A stretch of DNA of 64,000 bases, from NCBI GenBank assembly GCA_017506865.1, contig JAFCMP010000540.1, positions 186,001 to 250,000 on the forward strand, given 5' to 3'. The position numbers and the translations under genes are program-made. Shown in pieces: positions 6,698-63,618 of the stretch (the first letter of the stretch is position 1; each line of letters opens with the position of its first letter). The notes under the pieces are model-generated. The model did not search any database and was not told the origin of the DNA. It saw only the letters and a list, made by a program, of their open reading frames with translations. This DNA is from Tribonema minus. Its lineage: Eukaryota > Sar > Xanthophyceae > Tribonematales > Tribonemataceae.

Positions 6698-6950
6698 CTG
6701 TAAGTGACTTGCCCTATTCTGGCCTCTGAACAGTGCACAAAGGGGTACAATGCGTACATGGGCGTGCGTGCATGCAATCGCAAAACAGTGACGAATGGCT
6801 AGCCCTCATGCATGCATATGCAGCAAGATTGTGACAATGAGCTGTGTCATGCGAGAAGCAGAGCAAAAAGAAAGTGTGGTGTGTGGACGTCCATACACAA
6901 GATGTGCATTCACACGCATAGTACTCATTCTAGCTAGGTGGTGTGGGATT

Positions 6951-41067: not shown

Positions 41068-41442
41068 CTCCCCCTTCTCGAGTTTTCTCTGTCCCCAGAG
41101 AATCGTCAAGATCTTATGGGATCAACGTTAATCGCCACGGTGAGATACATGCACACTGTACATCTTCACTTCTACCCTCAACCTGCTGCGTCCCGTGAAA
41201 ACTTTCAACGTAGTGTGCGCCGTATACGTTTCATCACAATGATCACCTGGGTACTAGAATGGTATGCATCCGGTTAAAGCATCGTGCCACCTAGCGTACA
41301 AGCACTGTCTCAACAAACCACTGTTCGTCTTGAGGTGCAATGCAAATCTCATCTTCTCGTTTGTTCGAGTCTTCTACTGCTCTTCAATCTTCTATCTCTG
41401 TCACCTCATCGGTGCTAGTCATCTCGTGACCCCCTACGGTGG
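41068..41442. other. Stretch 3' of the gypsy element, no gene seen
   Basis: Should contain the 3' end or LTR of the minus-strand gypsy element, but no direct repeat of it was found beyond 54.9 kb in this window. Confidence 0.4.
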
Positions 41443-42443
41443 TCAGCAACAGATTCCAGCTCGACATGGGGCAGCCCTCGCCTCTTCTGCGGTCACCGCG
41501 GAGACGTAGTAGTCAGGCCGCAACCTCACAGTAGTCAGGCGGTTTGCGGGGTGACCATTGTACAACACGCGAAACGTAAACATGCTGGACCGGGGCAGGT
41601 GCTCCTTGAGCACGCCGCGGCTCCAACCAGTGACGTTCTTCACTCTCATGATCTGACCTACATAGGTCTCGCCAAAGTCCGCAGGGATCATGGGGCACAT
41701 CGCTTGCACCGTTGTGGGGGCAGCGGTGGTGACACCCAACTCTCGTGGACGCTGTTGGGTGGCCTCAGCAAGAGCAACTGCGCATTGCAACTGCCTCTTG
41801 GTGAAGTCCTCCCACTCGCCATCTTCGTATCTTACACGCCAATAGGGTGAGAGGTAGCCCGCGACTGAGCCCCACACACAGGTGATGTGCTGCGTCAGCG
41901 CCTCCCGATGCTCTCTCACAACTTCAGTGCCTCGGGGAAACAAGGCCAGCGCAGCTTCCTTGGTGGAAGCTGGGCGGCTCTCGTTAGGTACCCTCTGGCA
42001 TAGTCCGGCATGCCATGCTCATGCTTCAGCTCATACAGAGCGTGGAAGGTGTCGAGCGTCCAAGGCATCGCAACTTCAAGTGTTTCATCCTCCGTCTTCC
42101 ATGCACTCTTAGATCTATGTCGTGTGAGCCACCGGTAGTCCCACGTACCGTTGGGGTTGTACCGGCGGTCCACGAGACGCTCTAACCATTCATCTCTTGG
42201 CAGGCTCTTAAGCTCTTCTTCGGTGAGTAGTGCATAGGGCCGCTCCGTCTCCTGGACGTCGGACCTTAGGTAAAAGGGCTTCATGTTTGTGACATGCGCG
42301 CGGGTACGGCGGATGCGCCGACCCATCATGCAACACGAAAATGACAACCCAGACCCGCTGTGGTCCTCGCTCACGACCCACGGGCCCACATACTTCGGGT
42401 CCAGCTTCTTAGAGCGACCGGGCACAGGTGGCTGGCGGATCAT
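41443..42443 (-). pseudogene. Gypsy polyprotein tail: GPY/F, chromodomain-like and Tudor-like segments
   Basis: Frame 42443-41916 carries KKLDPKYVGPWVV (GPY/F module, integrase C-terminus), RAHVTNMKPFYLR, then EWLERLVDRRYNPNGTWDYR and W-L-T-R-H-R-S-K-S-A-W, the layout of a chromodomain (acidic-hydrophobic start, YxWL strand, SAW near the C-terminal helix). Frame 41943-41443 continues with YWRVRYEDGEWEDF, a Tudor/Agenet-like strand pair common in algal retroelement tails, and ends shortly before 41443. A frameshift near 41950 separates them. Chromodomains in such elements direct integration to marked chromatin. Confidence 0.6.
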
Positions 42444-42542
42444 GACAAGGTCCCTTCATGGCGCGCTTGACAGCCTCATTGACCTTGTCAATACGGCTTG
42501 CCTTGCGACCATATGCCTCGTCTATCACTTTCTGCGCCAACT

Positions 42543-43571
42543 TCAAGTTTGACAACGTGTGCTCAATCTCAGCGTGCAGGTCACCGCCATGTGTCTCATC
42601 AGTGAACGGCGCAAGGGCACTGACGGCTCGCGCCCGTACACGCAGAAGAAGGGGCTGAGCCCAGTGTCTTCTCGTGGGGTCGCCCTCAGCGCGTATTGCA
42701 CGGCCTCTATGCCCTCATGCCAATTCTTCTGGGTGGCGTTGACCCACATAGTCAATGCTGCCATGATCCTCTCATTCTGGCGCTCGGCCACACCATTGGC
42801 CTGTGGATGGTATGCGCTGGTATCCATCTTCTTGATTTTGAAGAGTTTACACAGGTCGCTCACCACTGCGTTCAAGAACTCTTTCCCTTGGTCTGAAACC
42901 AACTCCTGTATCATTGACCCTGACTCAAGGATCACCTTGTAGAGCAGTTTGGAAGTGGTGAGCATGTCTTTGTTCTTGATTGGCATGAGCCAACAGAACC
43001 CAGAACGCGCTTCAATCACTGTGAGTAGTCCGATGTGTCCTTCACTGGACGTCACCGAGGTCATAGTGATGTCAGTGCGCGCTCGCTGAAACATGCGAGT
43101 TGGCAGCGTCAACATCAACTTGGCCTTCCCAGTGGTCGCTTTCTTACGCTGCAGACATGCCATGCAGCTGGTGACGTAGGTGCGCATATCGTTACCCATC
43201 TGAGGCCAGTAAAAGCGCTCAAAGATGCGCAAGTGAGTAGCGCTAACTCCAGCGTGCCCTGCAGTGGCATCGTCATGCCCAAGCCTCATCACTAATGCGC
43301 GAAGCGCTGTTGGTACATACCATTGGCGCAGCACAGTCCCGCGTTTGGGATGGCTGGTGGCCAGGTGCACCAGCAGTCCGTCTTCCTCTAAGCAATACCA
43401 GTCCCTGTTCATCATCAAGTGCAGCGCTAGCTCGCCGTCCTGGGCCAAAGTCCCCTCTCTCAGCGGGCGCGCTATTGCCTGACTGAACGCGTCTCTCTGC
43501 TGTAGCTCTATGAAAGCCTCACGGCTGAGTGCTGCAGGCGTAAGGGGGTGTCCCTCAGCGCGCTGTGACAC
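42543..43571 (-). CDS. Ty3/gypsy integrase
   Basis: 342-residue frame. Zinc-binding HHCC module: H99, H106, C136 and C139 (with YWPQMGNDMRTYV between). Catalytic triad D167 (RTDITMTSV), D227 (LVSDQGKEF) and E263 (YHPQANGVAERQNE), with 35 residues between the second Asp and the Glu (DD35E). The last 20 or so residues are out of frame relative to the family; the authentic continuation is in another frame (ALAPFTDETHGGDLHAEI), so a frameshift lies near 42610 and another near 42460. Upstream the RNase H frame overlaps by 17 nt with a frame change. Catalytic residues are intact. Confidence 0.85.
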   Translation of the reverse strand: MSQRAEGHPLTPAALSREAFIELQQRDAFSQAIARPLREGTLAQDGELALHLMMNRDWYCLEEDGLLVHLATSHPKRGTVLRQWYVPTALRALVMRLGHDDATAGHAGVSATHLRIFERFYWPQMGNDMRTYVTSCMACLQRKKATTGKAKLMLTLPTRMFQRARTDITMTSVTSSEGHIGLLTVIEARSGFCWLMPIKNKDMLTTSKLLYKVILESGSMIQELVSDQGKEFLNAVVSDLCKLFKIKKMDTSAYHPQANGVAERQNERIMAALTMWVNATQKNWHEGIEAVQYALRATPREDTGLSPFFCVYGREPSVPLRRSLMRHMAVTCTLRLSTRCQT

Positions 43572-44480
43572 CAGTCCGCGGCTCTGCTCGGTGAGTGTAC
43601 GCTTGCGGCGCGGCTCGTAACAGCCTCAGACGACTCATCAGCGCGCGACGGAGGGATGGCGCCCCAGGCTGCTCAATGGTGCTGGCTGCAACTCGTGCCT
43701 TCTTTCGTGCTCTCTTTGCTGCCTTGCTAGGGGCAGGTGAGCCCCAATCGGCCTCTGCTGCCTCATCCATGCGTGCATTTGCATACATGTGAAGTGTAGC
43801 TGGACTGAAGAGCATGGACGCGGTCTCTCCATCCGTCCACGGACCCAGCTCTTCGTCTAGCTCATCTAGCATCTCATTTACTTGCGCGACTGTCATCTTG
43901 GCCAGTTTGGCAGCTAGACCGGTTTCGTCACCAGCTTGGCTCATGGCGAGTTCGTTGAGACTGAAGGGGTGCCCCCATTCAGTGCTCACAACGCGCCCCC
44001 TAAACGTGGCAATCTTGACAGCGCTAGCCTTCACCGTGGCGTGTGAGTCCGGCATGTCTTGGAACCGAACCCCTGAGGGTGGTGCCGCAAAACACGGTAT
44101 GGAGTCCGACCACTTTTCATCTGCTGGCTCATACTCTCGCGGTGCATCTAGCTCGCAGTGCTTTGGTAGCCTAGATGGTCCGTCGGCGTTAGAGTTCACA
44201 AGGCCGGGGCGATGTTGTACGGTAATGTCGTACTCCATCAACCTCATTGCCCACCGCATGAGCTTGCCGTTGTGATCTTGCAGCGTCAACAGCCATCGCA
44301 ATGCCGCTGCATCCGTCACTACCGTGGTAGGGTTACCCCACACGTAAGGTCGGAAATGGTTGAGCGATAGCACAACGGCTAAGCACTCTAGCGCCGTGGC
44401 GCCCACCTTCGCGTCTTGCATAGAGTTAACTTTTGATAAATAACCCACCACTACTTCCATTTCCTCCCTCCCATTTACTG
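43555..44480 (-). CDS. Ty3/gypsy RNase H and connection to integrase (5' truncated)
   Basis: The frame includes VVVGYLSKVNSMQDAKVGAT and ECLAVVLSLNHFRPYVWGNP, TVVTDAAALRWLLTL and HRPGLVNSNADGPSRL, the RNase H block that normally follows gypsy reverse transcriptase. The first recognisable residues are around REEMEVVVG (about 44470). Immediately upstream the frame no longer resembles RT, and the Fanzor-like exon occupies the DNA, so the RT is lost. A 150-residue tail rich in acidic and basic residues precedes integrase. Confidence 0.75.
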
Positions 44481-44489
44481 TGCGCCTGC

Positions 44490-47400
44490 GGCCTGCCGAA
44501 GGTGCAGCCTCTTTGCCGCACACGCTTCCATCCCGGCGGCCTGTGCTGCCGCCGAAATGGGGCCAGCTTTTCTGCCATCTTGGCAATGGCGGCCTGCTGC
44601 GCACGGAAGCGGCTGAACCTCTGATGCCGTCGTGCTGGGTTCAGCAGCTCTCCCCACATGGCATCTGCATGTTGCCCCCAAGTGGTGCAGTAGGCGCGCA
44701 GCACCTGCAATGATGCAGCCACCAGGACGGGCACCGTGTGTACACAGAGCGGAATGAGTGGGGGCTACCATTACAGTGGGGGCAGGGGTAGAGTCACGTG
44801 AGGGCCCACCGCATCAGATTGTAGAGGACATGCTATGTACCATTACAAAAGCCCCAAGGCTTCTCCCACTGTCAGAGCTCTGCTCAGCGACTCGCAATCA
44901 TCGGCGCTACACAACGGTCATACATCATGTGCACCAGGATTCAGGGAATGACAGGCGCTTGGTGTGATGTGCCATTGATCTTGAGACCCCCAATACTTCT
45001 CAATGACAGCAGCAAGGAACATATGAATGCACACATCACTCCAGACCTGCATTTCAAACTTGGATGCGCTGCTTCTGCTGTAACAGGCATGCGGCACTTG
45101 CTGAGTCGAAGACAAATACGGACACGTCCAACCGTCATGGTGTCATGTGCTCGCTCCCATTGTGCATCGAGATAGACAGCAGTGGGCCCTTGCGCACATT
45201 TGAACCAGTATAACACAAGGCAAGAGCATGCATGTATGCACACTCATGCAAGAGCCTGCGGTGCTGGCTCAAGACAACACAAGGCCCGGTGCTGCTGCAG
45301 TGCCCCGCAATTCTTACCTGATAGCGGCCCGTGCTCGTGTGCCTGTCCGCGAGCGCCGCGAGTGCATCACTGTACGCCTGGTTGGCCCCGCGGCGTTGCG
45401 CCTCCCCCTGCTCATTGCGGACAGACTGTGCCCATACGCGGTACTCCGCCCCTGACACCTCCTGCGCCGTTACGCCCTCGCCCTCTGGGGGCGGATTTGC
45501 TGCAAAATCCGCGGCGTTATCGCGCCTCCAGCGCTGGCCAAGGGCAGTGACCGCACTGAAAGCCAGCACCTGGCCCGGGTCCACCCCAGTCACCACGACA
45601 TGGTCCAGGGCGTGCAGCCGGTCCTGTGCAGCAGGGGTACCGCCTGCCACCGTAGCCGGCTCCGCCCCTATCTCCCTGTGCACACGCTGGAGGCGGAACA
45701 CCCCATTGGGGCCTTCAGCCACCTCCCCCTCCAGCACATCCCCCAGCTCCTCATTGATGTACCCAACCTGTGACAGAGGAGAATGCAATGAACATGAGTG
45801 GAGGGGGGGGGGGGGGGATCAGCAAGCTGTTGGGTGTACTATTGTCAGCCTGCCCATGAGGCGTACGCTATAGTATAGCACCATGACCATCGGCGCCCTC
45901 ACTTTTGGCATGCTGATGGCATGCTGGAGTCACAAAGGTGAGGCTACACAGCGTCTGCATGCAGTCGACATTGATTTTTCACATCATATCCAGACAGTGT
46001 CGGCACGCCATCGAGTCAGATTGCAGAATGGGACTTCATGGCGCAAGTATGACATACAATCAATACCACAGTGGCAATGTTCATGATCGGCAAGAAAGCT
46101 GTTGAATCAATTAATCAACCTATGATTGAATCAACGGACACGATAGTTGTGACGCGCGCCCCTCACCAGGTTGCATCTGCAACTGCAACATATGTTGTAG
46201 AACTCCGAGCAGCTCCGCCTAATGCAGCATTTAACATCGAGTCGGGTAGAAGTACCTGATTGATGAGCATTGCACAATGGATGATGATGACAGCAGACAC
46301 TTTCTCTTTCAACCAGACATTCCTACGAGCTATCAGGAGACAATGTGAATACAGTGCACCTGGTAGCCCCTCCGCGGCAGTTCGGTCAGGCCATGGGGGC
46401 CTTGGTGCGAGTCGTGGCTGGTGACCAGCAGAAGCTTGAGCTGGTGCCCATCGGTCATGAAGGTCCTGTCCACCAGCCACGGGGCCAGGACGCGGTACCC
46501 TGGTTGGCTGGCGCGCTCAATTGCCCGCATCACACCGCGCTCGCTCCGCGCATAGTGGTTGGTGCGCTGCCGCATGGTGGTGATGTTGGCTGCCTTCGCC
46601 CATGGCTGCATGAACTCAGCATACCACCAGGGACCCCGACCGGCCATCCGCGCAGCAAGACCTGGAAACAGCTCGCCCATGCCGCTGCTCATCGAGGGGC
46701 GGCGCATGACACAGTGACAACGAAAGCACAACATGGTGAGACACTGCGATGCGATGGATGCATACTAAAAGTATGCAAGCATGGAACGAACCAACCGGTT
46801 TGAGAGCATGTGACAATCTCAATCATCACATTTGCCTGTGACTGCCAGGTTTCAACATATGATGCTGACTCAGACAGCCGCTCAGTGATCACCATATCAC
46901 GCGTATTAGAGTGATGAGATCATGATTGTCGCACCAACAGTTGACAGAGTGACAGGTCAAGCGCGCTGATAGGACATCTGCAGTGTGCTACTACCAGCAG
47001 CTAAGCTAATAGGACATCTGTATGTAGTGTGCTACTACAGTACAGTACTAGTATGTAGGCTAAGCGTGCTCATCCTGTCCACAGGCGCTACGCAGCGATG
47101 CTATGCCTGCAGCCCTAGACACACATATGCACGCACGCGCTGTACCCCTGTGAACTTTGGTCAGTGAACTTCAAGCAACTTGAAGGGCGAAGGACCTGAG
47201 AACAACAGCTATGAGACAGATGCGGCAGCGTGTTGGCAACTCACGTGCGGTCGATGCGGATGAACGCCGGCTGGGGCTTGAAGCGGGGGAGGGGGGCAGT
47301 AAGCTTGGGAGGGACCGGCAGCAGGCCCCACACAGCGTCCCTGTTCTCGCGGCGCGCTGCGGCATCGTCAGGAAACTGCTCGAAAAGCCCCGACATCAGC

Positions 47401-49492
47401 TCCTGGTAGTCTGTGCGGTCGGTCTCCACATAGAGCTGCTGCAGCTGTGCCAAAAGCCGGTGCTTGCTAGCGTCGCTGTCGCCGTCGGGCAGGTGGCGCA
47501 CCGTCTCGCAGATGTCCAGGATCTTGAGGTAATCGGCGCCCTCCTGCACATCTCCGTCATCGTCCAGCTCTGCGCCCCTGAAGCCCAGCTGGTTGAGGCG
47601 TGCCTGCGGCTCCCCGTGCAAGTCGTTGCCAGCATAGGTGGTCACCAGCTCAGCCAGGTCATGTACAGCCCTGGGAGCATCACGTGCAATCAATTTGGGG
47701 AGGGGGAGTCCGTAAGTTGTGTGGCAAACAAGCACTGTCACTCTAAGTGTACTTGAAGAACCACATCCAAGCCTGGCTAGAAGGCCAAGTCAAGAACATC
47801 CAGACTGCGGGTTGATCATTCTGAGCACGCCATCACACATCAACTTTCTTGCATGTAGGGACAGAATAAGGCGCATACATGCAGCGTGTGGCTGAACCAA
47901 CAAGTAAGGTTGAAGTTGTCCACTACCACTTTGCTCAATGGCAAAAACAGCTGCCTGCTGCCATTTCCACCTCTGCCATGCAGGGCTGGCGCAAGTGTGG
48001 ATGCAACCTGCACCCAGCCCTCTGTCCAGGTTACATCACGCCAAACATAGTGCACCACAAAAACAGCAGAAATGTGAGCCGTTGAGACACCCGCATTACT
48101 TGCACAAACGCCATGGTGCTGATGAGAGTATGCGAGCCGCTCCAGAAACTGCTTGCAAATCTATGCACATTGTACCTTGTGAATACAGGGCTAAATTTAA
48201 CTAAGCATTTGCAGCCCACCTGGTGAACGGGCGCACAGTCATGTCGACTTGGGTATCAGGGTCATCATCGTCATTCATGATGTGCGCCCGCAGGGCTTGG
48301 AACAGGGCCCAGTACGTGATGATGGCCAGGCGCCGCCGCTGGAAGTGCACCTGAATGTACGTGCTGGCAACCGTTGCCATGTCCTTGGCAACATAGAGGA
48401 AGACCTCATGCAGGCGCCAGGGCGCCCAGGTGGCCTGCAGGGCCTGCAGGTTACTGTTGTTGCGCAGGTCCTGAAATCGTTGAAGCGTCGAGGCGGGCAA
48501 CTGCGCAACAGGAAGCACACGAGGAGCACGTGTCACTCCACATGAACGAGTTGACCCCCTCGCACTGGCTTCCATGTGTTGACTTGGCGCTGTAGCCAGA
48601 GTGCCAGCTGTGATGATCGCAGATTGGTTGAGGTTTGCATGCTGGTCAATGCAAGTGTCAGTACCACTCGCACAGGTGACAACTCCAGGCATGTTGCGCA
48701 AGTGATTCAGGTACTGTGGGGCTGTTGGCATACTGGTTGACAAGGTCATCATGTGCTGAATGGAAGGCTGCCTTCATGAAACTGTGTGACAAGCATGCAT
48801 GAATGGCTCAACGTGCACATCCTTCTCAGATAAAGTCGCGAGCCATGGACGAACAACAAGTCATGCGACACTGCTGAAGTCCTGCGTGAGGTCCAACGCT
48901 GGCCAGAGTTATAGCTTGCGCCTGAGGCAGCAGCATGCGCTTTTTCTACATTCAGAAACAGTCACCGTTGTTGTGCTGATGCGCAGCGAATGGTGATGCC
49001 CAGTGCACGGTACCGCTTCAAAGGCCACGCTGCGAAGAAGATAAGTCTTTGTTCTTGTACCTGAGCAGCTCCAGGTCCTGCTCCGTTCGTGTAAGCTGCC
49101 CCCGCTCCTTGCACATAACAGGTTAAACACTCCATGAAGTAGCGCTGCGTGGCGTCGGGGAAGGGCTGTCCGTGATGCAGCTTCCACGTGCAGATGTAAT
49201 TGGCCAGCAAGGAGGCCAGATGCCGCACCTTCCCCACGTAATCTGCAGCGTCCTGGAGTGTTTGGGCCATCTCAAGGCTAGGGTGCCGATGCAGGACCTT
49301 TGCAAGGCTGCAAGAGACGGTCTTGTGCCTGAGCTTTACGCCTTGATCCGCTCCAAGGATGCGTCGCCTTCGCTCGAAGGTCCGCAACAGAGTCTCGTGC
49401 AGCCGGCGTGTGTGTGAGGGCTCATGCCCCTGGGCAGTATTCACCGCCGCCTGCCCGAACCTGTTGATGAGCCTCTCGACCAGGTCCGCCAT
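44490..49492 (-). CDS. Fanzor-like (eukaryotic TnpB family) RNA-guided nuclease, intron-containing, C-terminally truncated
   Basis: Six exons with matching phases: 49492-49061, 48500-48220, 47670-47245, 46684-46360, 45767-45318 and 44704 to about 44490, giving 638 residues through exon 5. Exon 4 ends with RTFMTDGHQLKLLLVTS, the F-x-TDG strand that precedes RuvC-I in Fanzor/TnpB proteins. Exon 5 has HVVVTGVDPGQVLAFSAVTA: D551 (codon 45581-45579) would be the first RuvC catalytic Asp. Then SGAEYRVWAQ and, in exon 6, W-x-x-L...RFSRFRAQQAAIAKMAEKL, matching the helical segment between RuvC-I and RuvC-II. RuvC-II Glu, the zinc finger and the RuvC-III Asp are not found: the frame runs into gypsy RNase H at about 44480. 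Known Fanzors use a noncoding omega RNA to cut DNA; no guide-RNA locus was identified here. Family assignment rests on motif order, not a database search. Confidence 0.7.
45803..45817 (+). repeat. Poly-G tract, 15 G
   Basis: Uninterrupted G run in the intron between exons 4 and 5 of the Fanzor-like gene (poly-C on its sense strand). Confidence 0.9.
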
Positions 49493-50037
49493 AATGTGAA
49501 AATCGCTGCACCATGTGGAGGAGACAATACACAGAGACAGGCTGTGACTGATGGCGTGGGCACATAATTAGGCACAGGTGGTTTGATCACGAGTCAAAGT
49601 GGATGTACTGGGAGCTTGAAACATGGTGTGCTGCGGCTGACAAGTGGAAATTGCCACTTTCGAGATACACCATCTCAGTCACAAGAGACCGCGAATCCCA
49701 TTGGATACGTGATTCACGGTTGGATACTATGCGAAAAAGCGATGCTGAATGCTGCACTGGCGATGCGATAAGATGATGCCATGCGATACGGATAGCGAAG
49801 AAGCCTTGCAAGCAACGTGCTCACACCTGAAAAGACGAGGGATAATCCGTCGACACTTACACTGCAGCCATCATGAGACACTGCAGCCTCAGGAGAACTA
49901 AAACATACTGTAGCGGCGAACACTGCACCGAAGTGGTGCACAAAGACAGTGAGCGACGGCACCATCAGTAATTTATGACCTCAGCGAGTGCGCACCTGTC
50001 GTCTCTCTATCAGCGCGCCGCACACCCCAACACAGGC
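49493..50037. other. Junction zone between gypsy protease linker and Fanzor-like gene
   Basis: Sequence with residual gypsy character ends near 50038 (last recognisable linker LKDVTLRVGK). A minus-strand frame at 49965-49714 has HHFGAVFAATV, possibly the very start of a gypsy RT region. GATACG/GATGCG words recur between 49700 and 49800. The exact breakpoint and any terminal repeat of the inserted DNA are not visible. Confidence 0.4.
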
Positions 50038-51425
50038 TACTTCCCAACGCGGAGAGTCACATCTTTCAAGTTGGTGCGATTTATCTCTTTCAGGGCCTGC
50101 ATGGCCGCCACTTTGAATGCGCCGTCGGGGTGCTGTTCTGCTGCTACTTGCAAGAGTCGTTGCTCTAACATGTGCAGCTCAGCGTCCTCTAACTCAATGA
50201 TATCTGCAGATTGAGCAGGTATGACTTCCCCCCAATTAGGGTGTTTATGGAAACCAACACAGGTTGGTCAGAGAAATTTACCAATTCCTCTCTCTTGCAA
50301 CCGAATCATCGTTTGTGTGGTTGCTGGTTGTATCATTGCAGCATAGGGGCGAACTCCCTTGACTGGGGGGCACAAAGCAACTTCCACATTCATCTCAGTG
50401 TGGGCAGGTATTATTATGTCCTCTTGCAGACACACCGCACGGTGTGGCGGTGGTGTACTGGCCGACACCTCGGCGTGCAATACGCCCGAAACCCTGGCAT
50501 TGCGCCACTTTGCGGGCGCTTGCTTCACTGTTGAACTATCTAGCATCTTCAACGTGGGCCCCTCCAATCCCAGCGGCCTGTATGTCAAGTCTCCGTAGTT
50601 AAACAGAGTCTTGTACTGGCCAAAGAAATCACTTCCCAAGATGGTAGTGATGGGCAGGTTCACAACGTAGAACTTGTGCCTCATCAGCTTATTACTAAAT
50701 CTTAGGGTGAGGTGCACCACTCCTTGTATCTTCACTCTCGTCTGATTGTCCGCTAGGTCAATCATTGTATGGTCCCCCTTCTCTAGCGAGCAGATCGCGC
50801 CCTCAGAGAGGTTGGTGGCCTCAGTGTTTGACATCATGCTCGCCTCTGCCCCAGGGTCAAGAAGTGACACGAAGTCGCGCTCAATGAACCCCTTGCGCCG
50901 TTGCACTCGTGCAAGGAGCCGGCCAAAGCATTGCTTGCTGGGCTCCCCGGTGGGAAGTACGACTTGCTCGCCAGGTCTGATAGAGGCCGGGTCCACAGTG
51001 TTGCAGGGGTCCCTGGCCTTATCGTGACACATGGCAGCCACCGCGCTAACACGTGGATTGCCTAGCCCTTCTCTGCGAGCCACTTCATGAGGGGCTCCCT
51101 GAAACTCGTGTTCACCTCCATCAGGGCTCTCTGGTAGTGAGGCTGCCTCTGAAGGTGGTGGATTGGAGCTTTCAGCAGTCTGACTCATTGACAAGTCTGA
51201 CTCACGTGACTCGTCTGAATCGTCGTCACCATCATCTGCCTCATCATTAAGGCTCAAGTTGGCCCATGGGCCCGTGTTCAAGCCTTCTTCGCTTAACATT
51301 TGAGGCGTGATTGCATACTGCCACGTGTCACCTCGTGCAATGGCAGCAGCTATCTTTGCCTTCACCCATTCCTCCTCTTTGGGATCCTCTGCCACATGCA
51401 TATTGATTCCCTGACTCGAGACCAT
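50038..51425 (-). CDS. Retrotransposon aspartic protease (pepsin-like, active-site variant)
   Basis: 385-residue frame (51425-50268). An acidic, disordered N-terminal part (DEADDGDDDSDESRESD) is followed by the protease: FVSLLDPGAEASMMS with D190 as catalytic Asp, then LPITTILGSDFFGQY, the ILGxDF strand. The usual D-T/S-G is D-P-G here, which would be unusual for an active enzyme. After TGA 50268-50270 the same frame continues for 75 codons to TAG 50038-50040 with VIPAQSADII and AAMQALKEINRTNL, the protease-RT linker. A short alternate-frame stretch (NFSDQPVLVSINTLIGG) sits between, so two compensating indels are likely, one at a G6 run. Confidence 0.7.
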
Positions 51426-51645
51426 CCACTCTGGGGTGGTGCATCGGGGTCATGGTCCACGCGGGTACCCTTGGAAAAGGGGGCACCTGCTGGGAGATCA
51501 AATATGCCAGAGCCCAAAAGCGCTACTGCAATGTGAAACGCCGTGCGGGGCATGACCAATTCACAAGCCACAACTTCATCTCTTCTGCGGTGGCCTTGGC
51601 TGGTAGGTCACGTGTAAACGTGAGCAAGACCGCCATTTCGCGCAA

Positions 51646-53433
51646 TTATAGCACACGGGCTTCATGCACTTGACCAGCATCATGCTGCGCATCAGGCACA
51701 TATTGAGAAGGATCAACGGGGGGTTTCCCTGGATTCCGTCTAACAGGGCTTGGCATGCAGTCATTGGCATCATACACGCTCTCAGCACCTTTGACACGCG
51801 ATTTCCAAAAGAAACAGCGCTCAGGGCAACGCAGGACGCGACGCACGGAGGTAGGCAGCGAAGCGAACCGTATTGCATTCAGCAGTGCACCAAACCGCTC
51901 CATGGCAGGGGCAACCCCCGACCCTCCCCGGACAACGAGAATGTACACCCGCTTCCTGTGGCATGCTACGTCATGGTCTGAGCCTTTCAGCTTGGAGACG
52001 TATAGACTGTAACCGTGCGCCAGCAGCACTGCCTCCGCCTGCGCCCACGCCTTAGAGCTCAGCATGGCCACAATGTTCTCCAGCACGCAGCAGCGCAGCT
52101 TCGCCCTCACGATCAGCTGTGCCGCGTGCACCGTCACTTGAGCTGCCTCTCCCTCGACACCCACCCCGTTCGTGTAATCTGTACACGGGGGGGACATCGT
52201 GGTCAAGTCAGGATCCAGTTCCACCAGTGCCTTGGTGACTGCATCATCACTCAAACTCGCATTCATCACTCTCACAGTAGCAGGGTGAAGCTCATGGTAG
52301 GCCTCACACACACGGGGACACTTGTCGACTGCAAGTCTAGTGTCCACCGCAAGGCCCGCCAAACTTGCCTGTCTCAATCCCTCGTTCCAGCCACCAATGC
52401 CGCAGCATATGGATGCATGCGTTACGCGCCGTGCCGCCTCTGGCCCAACGCCGCCGACAGGCACGCTAAGGTCCGGAGCCTGTGCTGCGGCAACAGCGCA
52501 AGCAGCAAAATGCCTTGCGTCATCACGTGTTGCATCGCTCAGCTCAATATCTGCATCAGTGCTCATCTCATCGCGCGTTGCATTGCTCAGCTCAATGTTG
52601 TCGCCCGCTGAGGGTGCCAATCTAGTGGCAGAGCTCAGCGGCGACGGTGCTAACATCGCGTGCAATAGCTGCTCATGGCGTGCGTGCCTCCGCGCAGCGG
52701 GGCTCGACGCACTGGCAACAGCAGCTTGCACGTTCTCACATGCCAAGGCAACATTCAGCTCTGCTTCGGCGCTCACACGACTGGTCCCGCCACCCGAAGG
52801 GGGACTAGCCAGTGTGTGCCCGACCGACACAAGCTCACCTTGCTGGTCCAACCAGCGCCTGTACTCCATGAACGCAGAAAAACTCTTCTCGTCAAACCCG
52901 CTCGCGGGCGCGGCTGCAGCTGCTGCCGCAGGCGCCGGCGCGGGCGCGCGCGGCGACGGCGCTGGCGGACCGAGGTGCGACGGCGCCCCGCTGTTACGGT
53001 GCTGCGCGGCCCCAAGGCCATAGTACGAGCCTGGCGGCGCAGCAGGCCTCGAGTTGGCCTGCGCCGAGTTGGCCTGCGCCGCGCACGCGTCATGGCAGGC
53101 CTGGCTGGCCTTGTGCACGTGGGGGTTTAAAGTGCCTGGGAACGTCCGACGGCATTGGTAGCATTGCCAGTCCGGGCGCTGCGGGCGCGCATACGGCGGT
53201 TGCATCGCCCTCTGCGGCGGCGCCGCGACCATGACTGCGGCGGCAGCAATGGTGGCTGCTGCGGCGGAGGTCTTCTCCTTGGCCTCCAGCTTGGCCGCCT
53301 GCTTGGCCACCCTACGTACGCTCCCTCGTGGCCACTTTCATCTCGCGCGCGGCAAGGGCCTTGCCCCCGGCGCTCGCACCCCCGCTCTCCTGCTCCTCGT
53401 CTGAGAGAGACGCCTCAGAAGCATCGCTCATGG
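51646..53433 (-). CDS. C5-cytosine DNA methyltransferase carried by the retrotransposon, with zinc-finger N-terminus
   Basis: Main frame 53310-51646 (554 residues); an upstream frame from ATG 53433 (MSDASEASLSDEEQESGG) probably supplies the true N-terminus across a 1-nt frameshift near 53345. Residues 48-73 have C50, C53, H64/H66, C72 and H73, a zinc-finger-like knuckle. An Ala/Pro-rich linker follows. The catalytic domain has motif I HASICCGIGGWNEGL (298-312, SAM binding), motif IV TTMSPPCTDY with nucleophile C376, motif VI VLENI (409-413) and motif VIII CHRKRVYIL (450-458); a conserved-looking SVYDANDCMPSPVRRNPGKP closes it. It transfers methyl from S-adenosylmethionine to cytosine C5. Catalytic residues appear intact. 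Position between gag and protease on the same strand shows it is element cargo. Similar captures were reported for dinoflagellate and charophyte retrotransposons. Confidence 0.85.
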
Positions 53434-54870
53434 CGCCGCTGGCGGCGGCGGCCTTGGCGCCCGCGCGGGCCCTCGGGCCCGCCGGTGCTGCCAGCGCCCA
53501 CGCAACGCTAGCTGCCGTCGATAGCTGCTAAATCGACCGCTTGCGCCAAAGCGAAAGGTCAGTTGCGCACGCTCCTGGCTGCTGAGCAGCCGCAGGAAGT
53601 GCATCTTCTCCGCTTCTCCCTCAACCTCCACGCCCGTCGCCGTGCAGAGCTTGCGCACACGCAGTGTCAGCTTCTGCGGGGTCTCGTTGGGAAGGCGAAC
53701 GGCGTGGTCGATGTCGTTGTGTGCAAACTTGCGCGCGACGTCTGAGCCGAAGTGATCCTTGATGGCAGCGACCTGCTCGGTGAACGGGAGCTGGCCGTAC
53801 GTGATGATCTTCCCGTTCCACATGCGCGTGAGGAAGTTCACGGTGTTGACCAGTGTTTTGTCTCTCGAGGTGCGGATGGCCGACTTCAGGGCAAAGCGCT
53901 GGCCCGGGTCGTTGAACTCGGCAACCTCACTTACGAGGGCATCGAGCTGCACGGAGCACACGCCTGGGGTGGATGACAGTCCGGCAACACTGGCGATCTT
54001 TGACAACGTCAGATCCCTGTGCTCCGACTGGTCACTCCCCCCTTTGGCTATGGCTTTCTTCTTTGGCGCGGCCTTCCCCGAGTCCTCACTGTCGCTACCG
54101 ACCTTAGATCCAACAGTGGTATCCTCGGTGGTGGGGGCAGTGCTGCCGAGCGACAGCGGACCCGGTGCAAAGACCATGCGCCCCTCACGTAAGTGCTCCT
54201 TCAACTTGCCATTCGCATACTGTTCGAGTCTGCGCATCTTTTCTGAGTCAGAGACATCCATGTCAAAAATGGCATTGATCTCTTGTGACGCAGTCGAGAT
54301 TGCAATCAGCCCGCATCGACAAGGCATGCAACTCAACGCCAGCCTGCTTCAAAGCGCCCTCCGCCAACACGCTGTCGTGCGTCAGCGCGGTAAGGTTAGC
54401 CTGACACGCGACGCGCTCGGGCGTGTCCGGCTTCACGAGCCGCATCAGCCCCCGCTCCGTCGCGTGGTCAGCTGTGAGATGCTTCACGAGCTCGCGCTGA
54501 CACGCCTCCTCCTCTTGCTTGCGCTGTTGGCAATTGATGGTGCCGTCGCGCGTGCTAGTCACCAGGGCAACCAGTGCGTTGTACTTGACGTGCGCGGCGG
54601 TTAGCTGTGGTTTGGTCTCACCAGTGCTTTCGCCGTCGCTGTCCTTCTCTGTCTCGGGGTCGTGCTCGTTCAGGTTCTCTTGAGGGCTCTTGTTGCCTTC
54701 AAACCCCTCCTCTCCCTCATCAGTCTCGCGCAGAGGGGTTGGAGGAGCAGACGACCTCCCCTCGTCTTCGCTCATTGCGTCATCGTTCAACGCTTGCAGG
54801 GCGTCAGCAGGCACTGACTTCTGCTTTCTCGCTGCGGTGGCCGTAGCCGGACCACCACCTCCCTTCCTTT
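53428..54870 (-). pseudogene. Retrotransposon gag (capsid-type), frameshifted
   Basis: Two frames: 54870-54263 (open upstream of the GTG at 54814; starts in a basic QRKRKGGGG stretch, then acidic EDEGRSSAPPTPLRETDEGE and a helical part) and 54336-53428 (MDVSDSEKMRRLEQYANGKL, then an all-helical capsid-like part with YGQLPFTEQVAAIKDHFG and NETPQKLTLRVRKLC). A frameshift at about 54300 divides them. Near 53540 the frame probably shifts again, ending LAQAVDLAAIDGS-stop. The zinc knuckle usually at the gag C-terminus is instead in the methyltransferase ORF. Identification rests on position and helical character rather than a diagnostic motif. Confidence 0.6.
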
Positions 54871-54879
54871 TCCTTTGGG

Positions 54880-55162
54880 AGTCAGTGTCTGCACATGGGC
54901 ACAGGAATCCCGTGAGACACTTGGAATCCCGTGAGACACTTGAAGTTCAACATAAAAAAAATGATCGTGTGAAATTGCCGTGCTCTAGCGTCCATGCATA
55001 TGCCAGCATGGAACAGCACTCTCTGACAACCAGCGCCTTCACGGAGTGCTGGTCTGTCTCTCACGTGACCGTCAAGGTCCTGCCCCGGCGGGTTTCCAAG
55101 CCACCATCGAGCATCCCCGGTCACGCTTGCATTTCATTTGTATTTGGCAAACGTTCTGTTGT
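54880..55162. other. Upstream of gag; short direct repeat
   Basis: GGAATCCCGTGAGACACTT occurs twice in tandem (about 54905-54923 and 54924-54942). No coding frame; may contain leader or LTR remnant of the gypsy element. Confidence 0.4.
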
Positions 55163-55528
55163 TGAGATGGGAGCTGCATAACAAGGCGGTTCTTGGAGTG
55201 ACAACAGAACATTCCTGGAACTCTCCTTTCAGTGGAGCGTCATCAGAGAGCCTCTAGATTGAACTAGGCACACACCCACACAGCGGAGCTACTGTTGACA
55301 AGGCGGCAAGCCCAGCTGTCGGAGTAGCATCCCCAGCCCCCAAGGCAACCTCCTGCACCGAGCCCTCAGCTCTGGCCAGCTAAATGTGAGTGTTACACAC
55401 CATACATTCTGGCCTCTGCTTTCTGAATGTTGCTCTGCCGTACAAGGCTCGCTATGGCCTGTACCACCCGGACCCTGGCACGCCCGCTTTGTGTCCATAG
55501 GGCCTAGGGCCGCGTTTTCGCTTGCTCA
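55163..55528 (+). repeat. 5' LTR, 366 bp
   Basis: Starts TGAGATGGGAGCTGC and ends TTCGCTTGCTCA; near-identical to 56636-57001. Confidence 0.85.
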
Positions 55529-55530
55529 GA

Positions 55531-55548
55531 TGGCAACCAAGACAGGAC
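55531..55548 (+). other. Primer binding site
   Basis: TGGCAACCAAGACAGGAC is the exact complement of the last 18 nt, including CCA, of the tRNA-like sequence ending at 57999. Position (2 bp after the LTR) and length are canonical. Confidence 0.8.
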
Positions 55549-55616
55549 TGAGTCACGTGTTTCAGGATGGAAGCCTTATACCGCTCGTGGTAAAAGGCTC
55601 GGCCTTGCGCAAACTT

Positions 55617-56280
55617 TCACGCACCCATCCCACCTACACTCTCTCCGGTATAATCTTGAAGAACGACATTGTAGGCAGCGGCGCAGGCCCGAACAGGCTG
55701 CGATCTGTTGCGCTTGCGCTTAGATATAGGTACGCGGTCTTCTGCAGCCACGCTCGCCACCTTGACGGGATGTGTGGTCGCCTGAGCATTGTACTCGGTT
55801 ACCGACACGCGCACGTCCCGATCTTTGGAGGGCACAAAAACCATGTCATGATAGTCTGTCACTGATCCATTTTTGCCCATGAAATCACTGCCAAGAATCG
55901 CTGGGGCCTTGATATCAGCCACAACGAACTTGTGCTTGAACATGACGTCATTGAAGTTCACCCACATCATTACGGCTTTCTTCACAGGTGCGTGGGTCTG
56001 GCCGTCAGCGTACACCAACGTCTCAGCTTCACCTTTCTGCACACTGTAGAATGCCTTTTGAGGTAGCAGGCGAGCTATCCTCGGCGACAGAATGCTAATC
56101 CCAGAGCCCGAGTCAATCAGCAATGGCACCGGGATTTGCTTGCCATATACGGTGGCCATAGCAGGCACATACACTTGCTTGCGCTCTCTGAGGCTGTCAC
56201 CATGCTGCACGCTGGCAACGTGTGATTCACTCTCAGGTTGCGGCGGATCGCTGCTTGGCGCTGCATGAGCTGGACCTTTG
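55617..56280 (-). pseudogene. Second retroelement aspartic protease fragment, antisense inside the LTR element
   Basis: Frame 56210-55617, open upstream to about 56280. VPLLIDSGSGISILSPRIAR holds the D33-S34-G35 active site and APAILGSDFMGKNGS the second conserved strand. It is related in layout but not closely in sequence to the 50-51 kb protease. Neither gag nor RT accompanies it. Because the primer binding site puts the host element on the plus strand, this segment was probably captured in reverse. Confidence 0.65.
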
Positions 56281-56635
56281 ATATAAAGTTTGATGGTGAG
56301 ACCACCCCCAGGCAGAGGCGTTGCGATCTGTGTGCTACAATACTGATGTCCAGGCAGATGTAGGCGACTGGCACCTCATCACGCGCAGAGCAGACCTGAC
56401 GTGTTGACTCGCACATGATGAAGTCCTTGCCGAACGCACTGCTCACATCAGTGCGGGCATGCTGCAAGGCATGTGCCCCATGCAGGCACAGGGTGTGAAG
56501 TCTGATGTGCGCAGAGCACGCACCGCTAACACTGGCTCAGCGCGCAATGGCGTCACTGCCGGGCACTGCAGTAGTGCATGCCATGACGAGGACTGCATTT
56601 TTCATTTTTCATTTCTTTGTCTAAACCGGGGTGGC

Positions 56636-57001
56636 TGAGATGGGAGCTGCATAACAAGGCGGTTCCTGAAGTGACAACAGAACATTTCTGGAACTCTCCT
56701 TTTAGTGGAGCGTCATCAGAGAGCCTCTAGATTGAACTAGGCACACACCCACACAGCGGAGCTACTGTTAACAAGGCGGCAAGCCCAGCCGCCGGAGTAG
56801 CATCCCCAGCCCTCAAGGCAACCTCCTGCACCGAGCCCTCAGCTCTGGCCAGCTAAATGTGAGTGTTACACACCATACATTCTGGCCTCTGCTTTCTGAA
56901 TGTTGCTCTGCCGTACAAAGCTCGCTATGGCCTGTACCACCCGGACCCTGGCACGCCTGCTTTGTGTCCATAGTGCCTAGGGCCGCGTTTTCGCTTGCTC
57001 A
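56636..57001 (+). repeat. 3' LTR, 366 bp
   Basis: Direct repeat of 55163-55528; TG...CA ends, followed by TTGT target duplication. Confidence 0.85.
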
Positions 57002-57005
57002 TTGT

Positions 57006-57780
57006 TGCTCAAAACAATATGCAATCTCTGTTTAACGTCAATTGTTAGTGCTGCTGTCTAGCCGTGTGGCTCTCGCTTCTTTCTCATCTCTCTCCTCGTG
57101 CATCATGACATGCTCTCCCGCATTCATGGCCTGCACACTTCTCTGCCGCTCTGGACCGTGGCAGCACGAGCAGATGCTGACATCATCTTGCAAGACGTCC
57201 TGTTGCAACAGGTCGATGACACCACTTAAGATGCTGAGAAACAAAGTGGGGGGGCATTATCTGTCGCCAACGTAAACCCTGCTCGTGCCAAGAGAGTATT
57301 GACGTCAGACTCATAATCTCTTCAGCACAGCACTAACGATGGACGCCACGCGCAGTGGCGCGGGTGTGTGAACCGCAGCTGCGCATGGACGCGGACACCC
57401 GAGCGAGGGCGTGCTCTCTCGCAGCTAAGGCACAGCTGCAAAGTGTCTGACCGGTGCAATGGCTGGTTGCGGGGCCAGAGAAATCGTGTGGCGACGGAGT
57501 ATGTCCTGTTCGCTACAGATCCTCCGCGTATACTCTCTCTCTCTCTCTCTTTCTCGCTCTTGTTTTAGTTGGAACGAATGGCAACGCAACGCTAGCGCGT
57601 CCGCATCACGAGCGTGCCTACTGTGGACGAACGAATAACTGACGCGAAATAATGGGGTGAGGAGTAACTAGAGCGATGATGTGAGGTGCGCGTAGTGTGT
57701 ATAGGCGAGAATGGTATAAATGAAGACGAATGCCCACACGTCAACGCAATTTGCGTGTGCCGTCCGTGCGCTATGCATGT
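57006..57780. other. No gene seen; CT-rich microsatellite
   Basis: Short ORFs only. A (CT)9 run lies at 57533-57550. The GC-rich part 57340-57600 has no recognisable product. Confidence 0.4.
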
Positions 57781-57867
57781 AGGTGCGTCTCGGGTCCGCT
57801 CGCGAAGCGAGAGGTGGGGTAAGGACTGTCTTGTGTGCCATTGTGACGTGTGGTGGTTATAGTTGAG

Positions 57868-57936
57868 CTAACCCTAACCCTAACCCTAGCCCCAACCCTA
57901 ACCCTAACCCTAACCCTAACCCTAAACCTAACCCTT
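57868..57936 (+). repeat. Interstitial telomere-like CCCTAA array
   Basis: About 11 units of CCCTAA with two variants (CCCTAGC-CCC, CCTAAA). It directly abuts a tRNA-like sequence and follows a partial SINE-like head (57830-57867). Confidence 0.9.
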
Positions 57937-57999
57937 ATCGGATAGGGCATCCACCTGCGAAGCGGGGGGTTACAGGTTCAGGTCCTGTCTTGGTTGCCA
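57925..57999 (+). other. tRNA-like sequence (Arg-like) with encoded CCA, head of SINE-like repeat
   Basis: The 3' half folds as a tRNA: anticodon loop CTGCGAA (anticodon GCG), T arm ACAGG-TTCAGGT-CCTGT, then CTTGGTTG and CCA. The D-arm motif GGATAGGGC is recognisable, but the 5' acceptor strand merges with the telomere-like repeat, so this is not a functional tRNA gene. Genomic CCA suggests origin from mature tRNA by reverse transcription. A second degenerate head with GCTCGCGAAGCGAG lies at about 57780-57835. Confidence 0.55.
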
Positions 58000-58329
58000 T
58001 TGTGACGTGTTGTGCTTATAGTTGAGACTGTCTTACTTGAGGGAGCCATTTGGTCTGTTGGGCTACTATCAGGGCCAGCTTCCGTGCTTGTCTCTCAGTC
58101 TCCAAGGCTCCCAGTACTGCTGTGATTAGAACAACTGAAACTTCCCAGGTCACAAGTTCAAACCCTAACAGCGGGTCTTGAACTTGTTCCCTTTGGAACC
58201 TTAAGCCATTTCTAACTGCTGCATTCTGAACTCTTGAGTATGACCGGATACCAGAAACTGCTCATCATGTACTGCAAAGTAATTCATTTGTGTAGAAAAC
58301 ATATATGTATATATATCAAACCGTGTCAA
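58000..58329 (+). mobile_element. SINE-like repeat body, copy 2
   Basis: Matches 40609-41067 without the foldback insertion, from TTGTGACGTG to CGTGTCAA, ending in an AT microsatellite (ATATATGTATATATAT). Preceded by the tRNA-like head. Confidence 0.65.
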
Positions 58330-58369: not shown

Positions 58370-59170
58370 TGAATTGCTTCTCGCCAAGTGATATGAATGA
58401 CCCTTCAGAAGATTCAAAATGATAAAATGCAAAGTAACAACAACCCACCGAGCGTCGTACCGGCGCCATTTTGGGTCAGCCTCTTTCAAAAAGTAATCTG
58501 AGAGACAGCACACAGTCTGAACTTCAATAAGGTTCATAACCACAAAACCAAATCCGCACAGCATGCTGATGCAGGTTGAGCTTTTGATGCTATACCATAG
58601 TGATGCATGCTGGCATAGGGTAGCATCCAACATCAAGTAACAGTTTCAGGATGCATGCTGGCGTAGGCTAGCATCCAACTTCTAGTACTTCGAAGTAATA
58701 TTTTTCAGTAAGCAATACACAACAACATAGCATGCGGGCACCCGCTACAACCCCATGACATGGCACTACTTTACAGGACTAACCATACTAAAGTGTATTG
58801 AGACTGCATGTAGGTTTCAGGGCTGAAGCTTGATTCAACATCGAATTGCTTCGCACCCAGTGGTGTGACCTTTCAGGAGATTCAAAACAAGAAAATGCAA
58901 AGTAACTAAAACCAGCTGAGCGTCGTACCGGCGCCATTTTGGGTCAGCCTCTTTAAAACAGGAATATGAGAGACGGCACGTGTAAGCTCAAGTCTGAACT
59001 TTAATAAGGTTCATAAGCACAAAACGAACCAGAACAGCATGCTGATGCAGGTAAAGCCTTTGATGCAAGCCCATAGTGATGCATGCTGGCATAGGCTAGC
59101 ATCCAACTTGAATTTTAATAAAACATTTCAAGTAAGGAAAACACAACAATATATCATGCCGGCACACGCT
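58370..59170 (+). repeat. Tandem duplication of a ~350-bp unit
   Basis: Units at about 58370-58745 and 58842-59170 share AGCGTCGTACCGGCGCCATT, TAAGGTTCATAA and GCATGCTGATGCAGG, in the same order. The motif GATGCATGCTGGC is additionally repeated within the first unit. No coding content. Confidence 0.75.
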
Positions 59171-61718: not shown

Positions 61719-63288
61719 TCAATGTGCGCAAAACTGGAATCCCAATAGGCTTGCCGCTGCGTCTACTGCCTCAGCGTCGTCGATGTGCCCCACCAGCTCA
61801 GTTTTATTGACTACGGGCCAAGCATCCCTGCCGTGCGCGGTCTGAGTGTAATAGTGGAGCCGGAGGTGGTACTCTCCGTCATCTCCCTCATAGCCTGCGC
61901 CCGCGTGAATGAGCGCGCCGTGAAAGAGGATGATATCGCGAGCGTCGAGTCGCACAGTCACTCGATCCTTCTTGTTCACCTCCGTGGTGTCAAAACTTCC
62001 AGGCCAAACGTGCAGCTCGCCGCCGTCATGCAGGCTGATATTGACGCCCACAGGAAAACTGTCATTGTGCTTCAACGCAGCCTTAAGACTGTGAAGCGTA
62101 CAGCAACACGGCACAAGCTTAGCACCACAGAGACTAATGTGGTATGCAAAAACTGCCAGATTGGTGATTGTAAACAACAACAATCCGTGACATGAAGCTG
62201 GACAGCAAGCTGTTCCACATTAGGGCCTGCAACGTATGTATTACATAATCAGAACACATAATACTGCAACCCCTATTCCACATCATGATCTTTGCAGACA
62301 CGCTCTGGAAGCCCTGATAGAGCTGCAGCTTCTGTCTTTGCAGCGTTGTGCTCAGCCTCCCTCAGCAGGCGTGGTTATTTGAACACGTCCTTGATGCAAT
62401 AGCACAGCGGGAGAGCTTGGCAAAACCTGTCAAAAACGTGCCTGACATTGCAAGTCAGCGCTCATGATTGTTTACACATTGCTGGGTTTCTTGACGCGTT
62501 GTTCAGGGCTCACTCACGGCCTATCGACGGTTCCGCAACAAACTGTCGACGCTTGTGCGTTGCCCTACATTAAACTTTTCCCTGTATATCTGTACTTTAT
62601 ATATAACAGCAGACATAGACAGGCAGTCTTACTTGTTGAGCATCAGTCGCGGTGAGGGGGCTGCGCATGTGCGAGCTCCTACGACGTCTTGTTGGAAAGT
62701 AGAAGTGCTGGCCGCGTCACTTCCCTGTCCCCCCAGCCCCAGCAGCGTCCTGTTGATCAGTGGGCCTAGCTCCTGCTCCACCAGTCGCTTCGCCTTCACG
62801 AGAGGCGATCGACTGGCCACGTCGAAGAGCTTCACCTGGTGCCTGGTGTGCACAGGATTAACAATTCGCTCCCACGGGTGACAGCTTGTGTCGATGGGGG
62901 GCAGCATACTCAGTAGTCTCTCACGCGCCTCTTTCATGACGCTGTTCTGCCTGAATACTCGGTAACCAACTGACGAGAGAGCCTGCAGAGTGCTGGCCTC
63001 CAGGCTGAGCTTAGCTGCCGCAGCTCTGGACTGCGCAGCAGCACTGGCAAAAAGCGCTGATGCAGCTATGCTGGTAGCGTCGCCGGTGAGGATCGCAGTA
63101 GGATTGCGGTCCATCCTCAAAACTCTAACTAGGCCGCGCGCAGGCTTCAGTCGCTCGTGATAATCGTCACGCTTCCTGTGGATGAGCTTGTCCCGGTTTT
63201 TCTCGTAGTGCCGCTGGTTCTGAGCGCTGCGCTGCTGCTGCTGCTTCTTCTTTCCACTCTGCTGTTTGCTCTTGGCTACTGGAGACAT
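61719..63288 (-). CDS. Probable 2-oxoglutarate/Fe(II)-dependent oxygenase-like protein
   Basis: Exon 1, 63288-62633, begins MSPVAKSKQQSGKKKQQQQR, a basic Gln-rich N-terminus, then RHYEKNRDKLIHRKRDDYHE and, near its end, LVEQELGPLINRTLLGLGGQ. The last exon, 62088-61719, encodes GVNISLHDGGELHVWPGSF, then ARDIILFHGALIHAGAGY and RLHYYTQT: a strand-rich double-stranded beta-helix pattern with the distal metal-binding His (LIHAG) and an Arg (LRLHYY) that would bind 2-oxoglutarate. The proximal H-x-D pair should lie in a middle exon between 62632 and 62089 that I could not define; a coding-like stretch at about 62144-62220 ends at an acceptor. Possible substrates unknown. A single gene is inferred from order and spacing. 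Confidence 0.5.
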
Positions 63289-63618
63289 GCTGCTCTGCTC
63301 ACTCTGCTCATGCCTGGCGTTGCTGTGTAATTTTACAACTTCATCTCACGTGTATCTACTGGAGAATGTGCGTTTTTCTCCAGTACCTGCGGGGGCTTAC
63401 CTGGAGATTTTTTTTCTTCAGTACCTGCGAGCGCTCGCTAGCACCGCCAGGTGCGGCAGCAACGCCACGCAGATGGTGTGGGTGGCTTGGCTGCTACTGA
63501 CTGCGTGAGCCCTCCAGTGGCAGGTATAGAGCGCTGAGTGGTGCAGCACAGGGGGACCGCTGCAGCAGCAGCAACTGTGGGCCAGAGATGGGAGCAGCGG
63601 CAAAGGCAGCTATCTGCA

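Follow-up and report, generated by a model that had tools for sequence, protein, structure and literature searches.

The DNA analysed here (the window, 64,000 nucleotides) comes from Tribonema minus, a xanthophyte stramenopile and not, as the first-pass annotation had supposed, probably a chlorophyte. On the minus strand, positions 40609-58329 of the window are one decayed Ty3/Gypsy-like LTR retrotransposon (Table 1), which we delimited by alignment to a better-kept relative on C457 (C-numbers designate the contigs of the T. minus assembly that carry the copies). The internal pieces of the two copies are 91.5-93.9% identical and the LTR pieces 85.6-94.8%; the Ty3/Gypsy label rests on the domain order. 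The window copy is dead, with a stop in the methyltransferase, nested insertions and a missing reverse transcriptase (RT) domain. The two gag frames, which correspond by eye to the N-terminal part of the T. minus proteins P0002 and P0003, match no Pfam gag family, and we call them gag because of their place, the zinc finger and their recurrence. The protease-like frame, which Pfam matches under the cut-off (E 0.057), is identified by its LDPGAEASM motif, its place and its likeness to the relatives P0001 and P0004. Two 300-bp repeats (92%) lie at the edge of the nested insertion (55127-55426) and inside it (56600-56899). Just outside the 5' LTR, at positions 58398-59112, there are two families of short repeats (114 and 92 nt, 85-87%), and a minus-strand frame at 62629-63345 starts with a basic and glutamine-rich part.

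Table 1. Parts of the decayed retrotransposon in the window, in the order in which the element reads
Feature	Position in the window	Strand	Evidence
5' LTR	58001-58329	-	89% identity to 3' LTR of C457
Leader / start of gag region	57002-57867	-	93% identity to C457 element positions 295-1163
Nested insertion splitting the element, with another protease-like frame (55617-56375)	55165-57001	.	Gap versus C457; PF13650 E 5e-5
Gag region, now two overlapping frames	53428-54946	-	Likeness to T. minus P0002/P0003 by eye; P0002 match to the stretch
C2HC zinc finger, assigned to the end of gag	53095-53163	-	Pattern C-x2-C-x(8-16)-H-x(3-7)-C
C5-cytosine methyltransferase domain up to an in-frame stop, with motifs I-VIII and the target-recognition stretch	51646-52419	-	PF00145 E 2.7e-12
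Decayed rest of methyltransferase, motifs IX-X, disrupted frames	51425-51645	-	Three-frame reading; open in relatives
Protease-like frame (LDPGAEASM) and linker	50268-51449	-	Same frame as methyltransferase in P0001, P0004
Insertion replacing element positions 6275-7544 (RVT_1 domain site)	44520-50082	.	Alignment to C457, RVT_1 position there
RNase H, integrase (H2C2, rve), 3' end of pol, broken frames	41068-44519	-	RT_RNaseH 2e-18, H2C2 2.7e-18, rve 2e-9
3' LTR, interrupted by 134-bp insertion	40609-41067	-	Alignment to C457

The methyltransferase frame starts with GTG and occupies positions 51646-53310 of the minus strand (554 aa; 51646-53337 and 563 aa from stop to stop). The 554-residue frame described at first pass thus exists, but the coordinates then given to it (51646..53433) overrun the frame start by 96 nt. 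Its single Pfam family is PF00145 (C5-cytosine methylase; residues 308-472, 47 bits versus a cut-off of 22), and motifs I (CCGIGG), IV (SPPC), VI (ENI) and VIII (HRKR) are present. An in-frame stop directly ahead of motif IX truncates the enzyme, and a three-frame reading found the frames after this stop to be disturbed, motifs IX-X being assigned by eye. The zinc finger that had been placed at the front of the frame is there, as a C2HC pattern, and we assign it to the end of gag; the same pattern precedes the methyltransferase in eight of nine fetched copies, two pairs of which are near-identical, the exception being C47. Both PF00145 and TIGR00675 match all 16 members of alignment A2, the window copy included, the TIGR00675 score of the tabulated member being under the curated cut-off. 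Motifs I, IV, VI and VIII are retained in widely diverged copies in the alignment of T. minus copies. From these motifs and the above-cut-off PF00145 match, the retroelement domain has the features of a C5-cytosine methyltransferase.

Relatives of the window copy have kept the structure that it has lost. A BLAST comparison revealed LTR pairs in eight of ten fetched regions (301-413 bp, 97.8-100% identical), no pair being found for C218 and C157b within the stretch fetched. By eye, six of these eight elements have a PBS-like TGGC among the first bases behind the 5' LTR, all eight have a PPT-like AAGGGG ahead of the 3' LTR, and target duplications of 4-5 bp flank seven of them, C130 being the exception. 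Pfam reads the order methylase, RVT_1, RNase H, H2C2 and rve in a single frame in C130, C201, C323 and C34 (these long frames were scanned in two pieces, since they cross the locus ends), and the same domains in the same order spread over several frames in C457 and C47, so that the RT-RNase H-integrase order, with the integrase last, is found in six elements. The protease was recognised by Pfam at E<=0.01 only in C34 (E 1.1e-4, under the cut-off), and by motif in the window copy, C130, P0001 and P0004. With their LTRs, PBS, PPT, target duplications and PR-RT-RNase H-integrase order, these elements are LTR retrotransposons. The pol ends of four of the six elements scanned gave weak matches to the Tudor-like family PF21743 (E 3e-4 to 9e-3, under the curated cut-off).

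The methyltransferase recurs throughout the 158-Mb genome. The genome search yielded at least 78 scored matches (76 matched stretches stop-free, 16 lying in stop-free frames of at least 3,000 aa) and the PF00145 search at least 123, all above the cut-off; their union comprises at least 185 loci. Searches with further classes added at least about 112 more, an approximate number of entries that looked new. In total, there are at least roughly 300 methyltransferase loci, counting fragments and four loci that resemble other genes (C523, DNMT2-like; C223, twice; C181). We considered the 103 RTs that are closest to the C130 RT, a part of the LTR-element RTs of the genome. At least 87 of them have a methyltransferase just upstream: in 77 it lies on the same strand at a distance of 1.9-2.7 kb, and 10 were added from a further list after checking by hand. 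As to the 16 others, three (C450, C161 and C6) are close to a contig start, C55 has a methyltransferase fragment upstream, and the last 12 have no nearby methyltransferase among the matches listed; in three cases (C507, C218 and one in C27), however, a methyltransferase is listed 9-12 kb upstream. With their long stop-free frames and near-identical LTR pairs, relatives of the window copy look alive.

The spacings from methyltransferase to RT recur (about 1,984, 2,218 and 2,491 nt), and methyltransferase and protease are linked in one frame also in P0001 (ENA, on a 40.6-kb contig) and P0004 (JGI). The first protein search returned five relatives, two of which are from T. minus, and a later one added a third T. 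minus relative, P0010; P0004-P0008 are relatives from JGI. When the methyltransferase part of a 1,353-aa frame was the protein query, none of the 8,000 candidates scored reached E<=0.001; the shorter relatives P0001 and P0004-P0008 were found. The scans for bacterial relatives in genome contigs and for viral relatives in viral contigs, which detect close relatives only, returned 24 stretches and 3 + 5 matches, respectively, that fit the pattern, none of which was confirmed, and we rejected bacterial or viral contamination as the source of the enzymes. More generally, that the enzyme stands beside the retrotransposon genes through chance adjacency, misassembly or bacterial contamination has a negligible probability in view of the recurring spacings, the single long frames, the lack of a close bacterial relative and the linked frames in contigs from both ENA and JGI. 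The first-pass reading of a methyltransferase between the gag and protease of a gypsy-type element, on the same strand, is borne out by PF00145, the motifs and this recurrence. Neither of the two outcomes that the first-pass annotation named as refuting was found: in many other copies a methyltransferase is linked to a retrotransposon polyprotein, and in the tree described below the domain does not join the bacterial enzymes included.

The enzyme occurs at two places in the polyprotein. The order gag-methyltransferase-protease, with the protease seen behind the enzyme, is found in the window copy, C130, C457, C34, P0001 and P0004, and probably holds for C201, C323, C190, C47, C204, C23 and C4, judging from kinship or a shared PPPEWM-type tail. 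The order protease-methyltransferase-RT is found in C101 and C550; the C84 domain is the same as that of C101, and the leader is common to C66 and C185. The PF00145 match reaches only about position 164 of the 324 positions of the model in the gag-side copies, and covers nearly the whole model in the C84 type. The RTs are 25-37% identical between the two position groups and 61-100% within the gag-side group. The two positions could reflect two acquisitions from related sources, a passage of the enzyme from one element to another, or an early acquisition with a later move.

Several class variants were observed. First, in the C23 class, a family with several 3,177-aa frames, motif IV reads SSC instead of PPC. 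Second, a further methyltransferase-like class occurs in a 3,452-aa and a 3,561-aa frame (C33:5700-8600 and C550:288900-291900), downstream of a protease-like stretch; motif IV lacks the catalytic cysteine in the C33 copy (ASTTPQ) and has it in the C550 copy (STRCEE). As C33 is devoid of the catalytic cysteine and C23 carries SSC, activity may not be needed everywhere. Third, the loci of C223 (twice) and C181 are short frames for bacterial- or viral-looking C5 methyltransferases with an LGNSVVP motif ahead of the C-terminal tail, which may be host or endogenised viral genes.

The enzyme is under purifying selection between subfamilies. In the pairs of different subfamilies with a finite dS, the methyltransferase dN/dS is 0.12-0.23 (NG86; approximate, since dS exceeds 1), the remaining subfamily pairs being saturated; where computable, the corresponding values are 0.38-0.64 for gag and 0.05-0.11 for PR-IN. 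Likewise, the amino-acid identity between C130 and C201 is 80% for the methyltransferase, 76% for pol and 36% for gag. The window copy differs from C457 by 30 changes with a dN/dS of 0.42, as expected for a dead copy. In the near-identical pair C323-C157a, the domain shows eight non-synonymous and no synonymous changes (dN/dS of 0.34 for PR-IN and 0.63 for gag), and this pair therefore gives no support for constraint. Together with the class that has lost the catalytic cysteine in its C33 copy, it would fit a domain that is non-catalytic and persists as a passenger or structural relic. We consider this very improbable in view of the selection between subfamilies, the motifs kept in most classes and the retention of the enzyme in most of the relatives by RT counted above.

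A tree of 30 rows and 208 columns, taken from the SAM-binding half (two DNMT2 rows were flagged for odd composition), places the 16 T. minus enzymes on one side of a branch (98/97) versus 14 references, namely four DNMT2, one DNMT1, HhaI, 3g7u (which we take to be bacterial), five others taken as bacterial (only P0009 being so named) and two T. minus genes; DNMT3, DNMT4, DNMT5, DNMT6, CMT, SymbioLINE, KnitGypsy and viral enzymes are outside this sample. The group comprises 11 gag-side enzymes (94/97), three RT-side enzymes (99/96) and C212/C312, a class with no assigned element. The window domain groups here with further T. minus copies, apart from the small number of bacterial enzymes sampled. 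The probable DNMT2 of T. minus, C523:358150-359600, joins DNMT2 in the same tree (100/100). When searched against solved structures, the profile of the 16 domains gave 83 bits with DNMT2, 64 with DNMT1 and 60 with HhaI. Among the best 60 of 61 matches at E<=10, the DNMT3 class was represented only by DRM2 (10.7 bits, E about 2), and the PDB copy searched presumably contained DNMT3A/B chains. By profile, the enzymes are thus remote from the DNMT3 class, and a DNMT3 origin is unsupported. Taken singly, and all weakly, the domain of C84 is nearest to 3g7u, that of C550 to DNMT1 and that of C212 to HhaI.

Because DNMT2 proteins are RNA methyltransferases, their rank as best profile match among the solved enzymes makes an RNA target possible: the enzyme may act inside the particle, methylating the element's genomic RNA or tRNA primer. 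We regard this as fairly unlikely, for the following reasons. First, the unforced tree puts the retroelement enzymes outside the DNMT2 clade (100/100), and forcing the union of the gag-side enzymes with DNMT2 costs 21.5 lnL, with a borderline p-AU of 0.0455. Second, the CFT motif, a hallmark of DNMT2, was not noticed by eye in the aligned copy sequences. On the other side, besides the top matches to the DNMT2 tRNA methyltransferases, the domain lies directly behind the gag zinc finger, and RNA methylation was raised for SymbioLINE by de Mendoza et al. (PMC5890265).

Methylation has probably left its trace on some copies. We compared the window copy, C457 and C334 over the stretch from gag to protease and, for each of the three branches, counted C>T/G>A changes at CpG versus other C/G positions (Fisher test). 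CpG loss is in excess on the window branch (35/720 versus 31/2,043, p 2.6e-6) and on the C457 branch (19/698 versus 21/2,026, p 0.003), and is not significant on the C334 branch (16/693 versus 32/2,035, p 0.24). The CpG observed/expected ratio is 0.80-0.86 in the eight elements with LTRs, 0.74-1.14 in their flanks and 0.69 in the whole window; the LTR pairs differ by 15 transitions, three of them of CpG type, too few for reading the methylation context. The substitution pattern suggests that the window and C457 copies were CpG-methylated, by whichever enzyme, and the host's own enzymes could be the cause of all the CpG decay. The decay of old copies, and the weak sub-cut-off Tudor-like matches at the pol end of four of six elements, would also be consistent with an enzyme acting in trans, by self-restraint or chromatin targeting, on insertion sites or old copies, thereby dampening transposition or harm to the host. 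This we hold to be unlikely, as the elements have spread recently, with many near-identical copies and LTR pairs.

The anatomy, the copy number, the recent insertions, the selection between subfamilies and the common tree group of the sampled enzymes are observed. To explain them, we propose, as a somewhat probable reading, that the old, dead copy in the window belongs to an element whose polyprotein-borne enzyme methylates the element's own cDNA. The normal product would be one polyprotein of ~3,100 aa, comprising a gag with a C2HC zinc finger, the methyltransferase, protease, RT, RNase H and integrase, some polyproteins possibly ending with a weak Tudor-like part. The methyltransferase would be cleaved from the polyprotein and carried in the virus-like particle beside the nucleocapsid. 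There it would act on the double-stranded cDNA, methylating it no later than integration and probably at CpG sites. The new copy would thereby arrive resembling host DNA and, if DNMT5 is a maintenance enzyme in T. minus, would retain the mark that the element had set. Self-silencing, mimicry of host marks and protection of new copies, the functions suggested at first pass, are possible roles.

T. minus is reported to possess DNMT5, HELLS, CDCA7 and a DNMT4-like protein and to lack DNMT1 (PMC10538959), which is present in some sister taxa of brown algae (PMC12459048). Owing to this reported absence of DNMT1 and presence of DNMT5, T. minus is well suited for finding out whether the de novo step of a host methylome can be supplied by transposon enzymes. 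A bolder scenario, which we find quite unlikely, is that de novo methylation in T. minus is mainly the work of the retroelement enzymes, DNMT5 only copying their marks, and that two deeply separate Gypsy-like lineages acquired related enzymes at two polyprotein places. If this were true, transposons would write the marks, and the host methylome would be set up by its parasites.

DNMT capture by retrotransposons of Symbiodinium and Klebsormidium has been published (PMC5890265); two SymbioDIRS enzymes methylated CpG in yeast, and no signal was obtained there from the Gypsy and LINE enzymes, a result inconclusive according to the authors. With an enzyme in the coding region, multiple copies and selection, the T. 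minus elements are DNMT-encoding retrotransposons as de Mendoza et al. 2018 understand them. Similarly to them, KnitGypsy-Dnmt3 of Klebsormidium nitens is an LTR Gypsy element with a C5 methyltransferase in its polyprotein, several copies and purifying selection; its enzyme, however, is of DNMT3 type and located in Pol, and its copies are described as fewer than in Symbiodinium (PMC5890265). By contrast, T. minus is a stramenopile with at least roughly 300 methyltransferase loci, and its retroelement enzyme, which is not DNMT3-like by profile, precedes either the protease (behind gag) or the RT (behind the protease). SymbioDIRS-Dnmt3 and SymbioLINE-Dnmt of Symbiodinium are also cytosine methyltransferase retrotransposons at high copy number (PMC5890265), but they are DIRS and LINE elements, not LTR Gypsy, and the SymbioLINE sequences are outside our tree. 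The SymbioLINE enzymes, too, form an orphan DNMT lineage (PMC12344493, the main text of which makes no mention of Tribonema). The T. minus enzymes share with DNMT2, DNMT1 and bacterial Dcm-type enzymes PF00145, TIGR00675 and the motif order I, IV, VI, VIII, TRD, IX-X, yet form the separate group described above.

Within stramenopiles, Gypsy-10_Ec32 of Ectocarpus is likewise an ochrophyte Gypsy element with a Tudor-like end, in line with the weak Tudor-like matches above; it has a T. minus homologue, which may be one of the elements described here. The account of those Gypsy elements in PMC12477816 mentions no cytosine methyltransferase for them. Elements encoding DAM and DCM occur, among others, in stramenopiles according to Morozov et al. 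2019 (PMC6338049), who include methylase-bearing Ty3/Gypsy and DIRS elements; the passage concerned names neither the methylase nor the stramenopile, and may mean the adenine methylases of DIRS. In view of this statement, we make no flat claim of a first stramenopile case, and we found no description of these T. minus elements in the open-licence PMC literature, the scope of which excludes preprints and Repbase. The host lineage, the enzyme lineage and the polyprotein position appear new with respect to the known captures. That this would be a separate case, as the first-pass annotation proposed, is supported by the host and by the distance of the profile from the DNMT3 class, SymbioLINE and Klebsormidium sequences being outside the tree. 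Together, these data appear to extend to a stramenopile lineage what has been detailed in dinoflagellates and a charophyte, and such repeated capture suggests a general advantage for retroelements in methylating their own nucleic acid.
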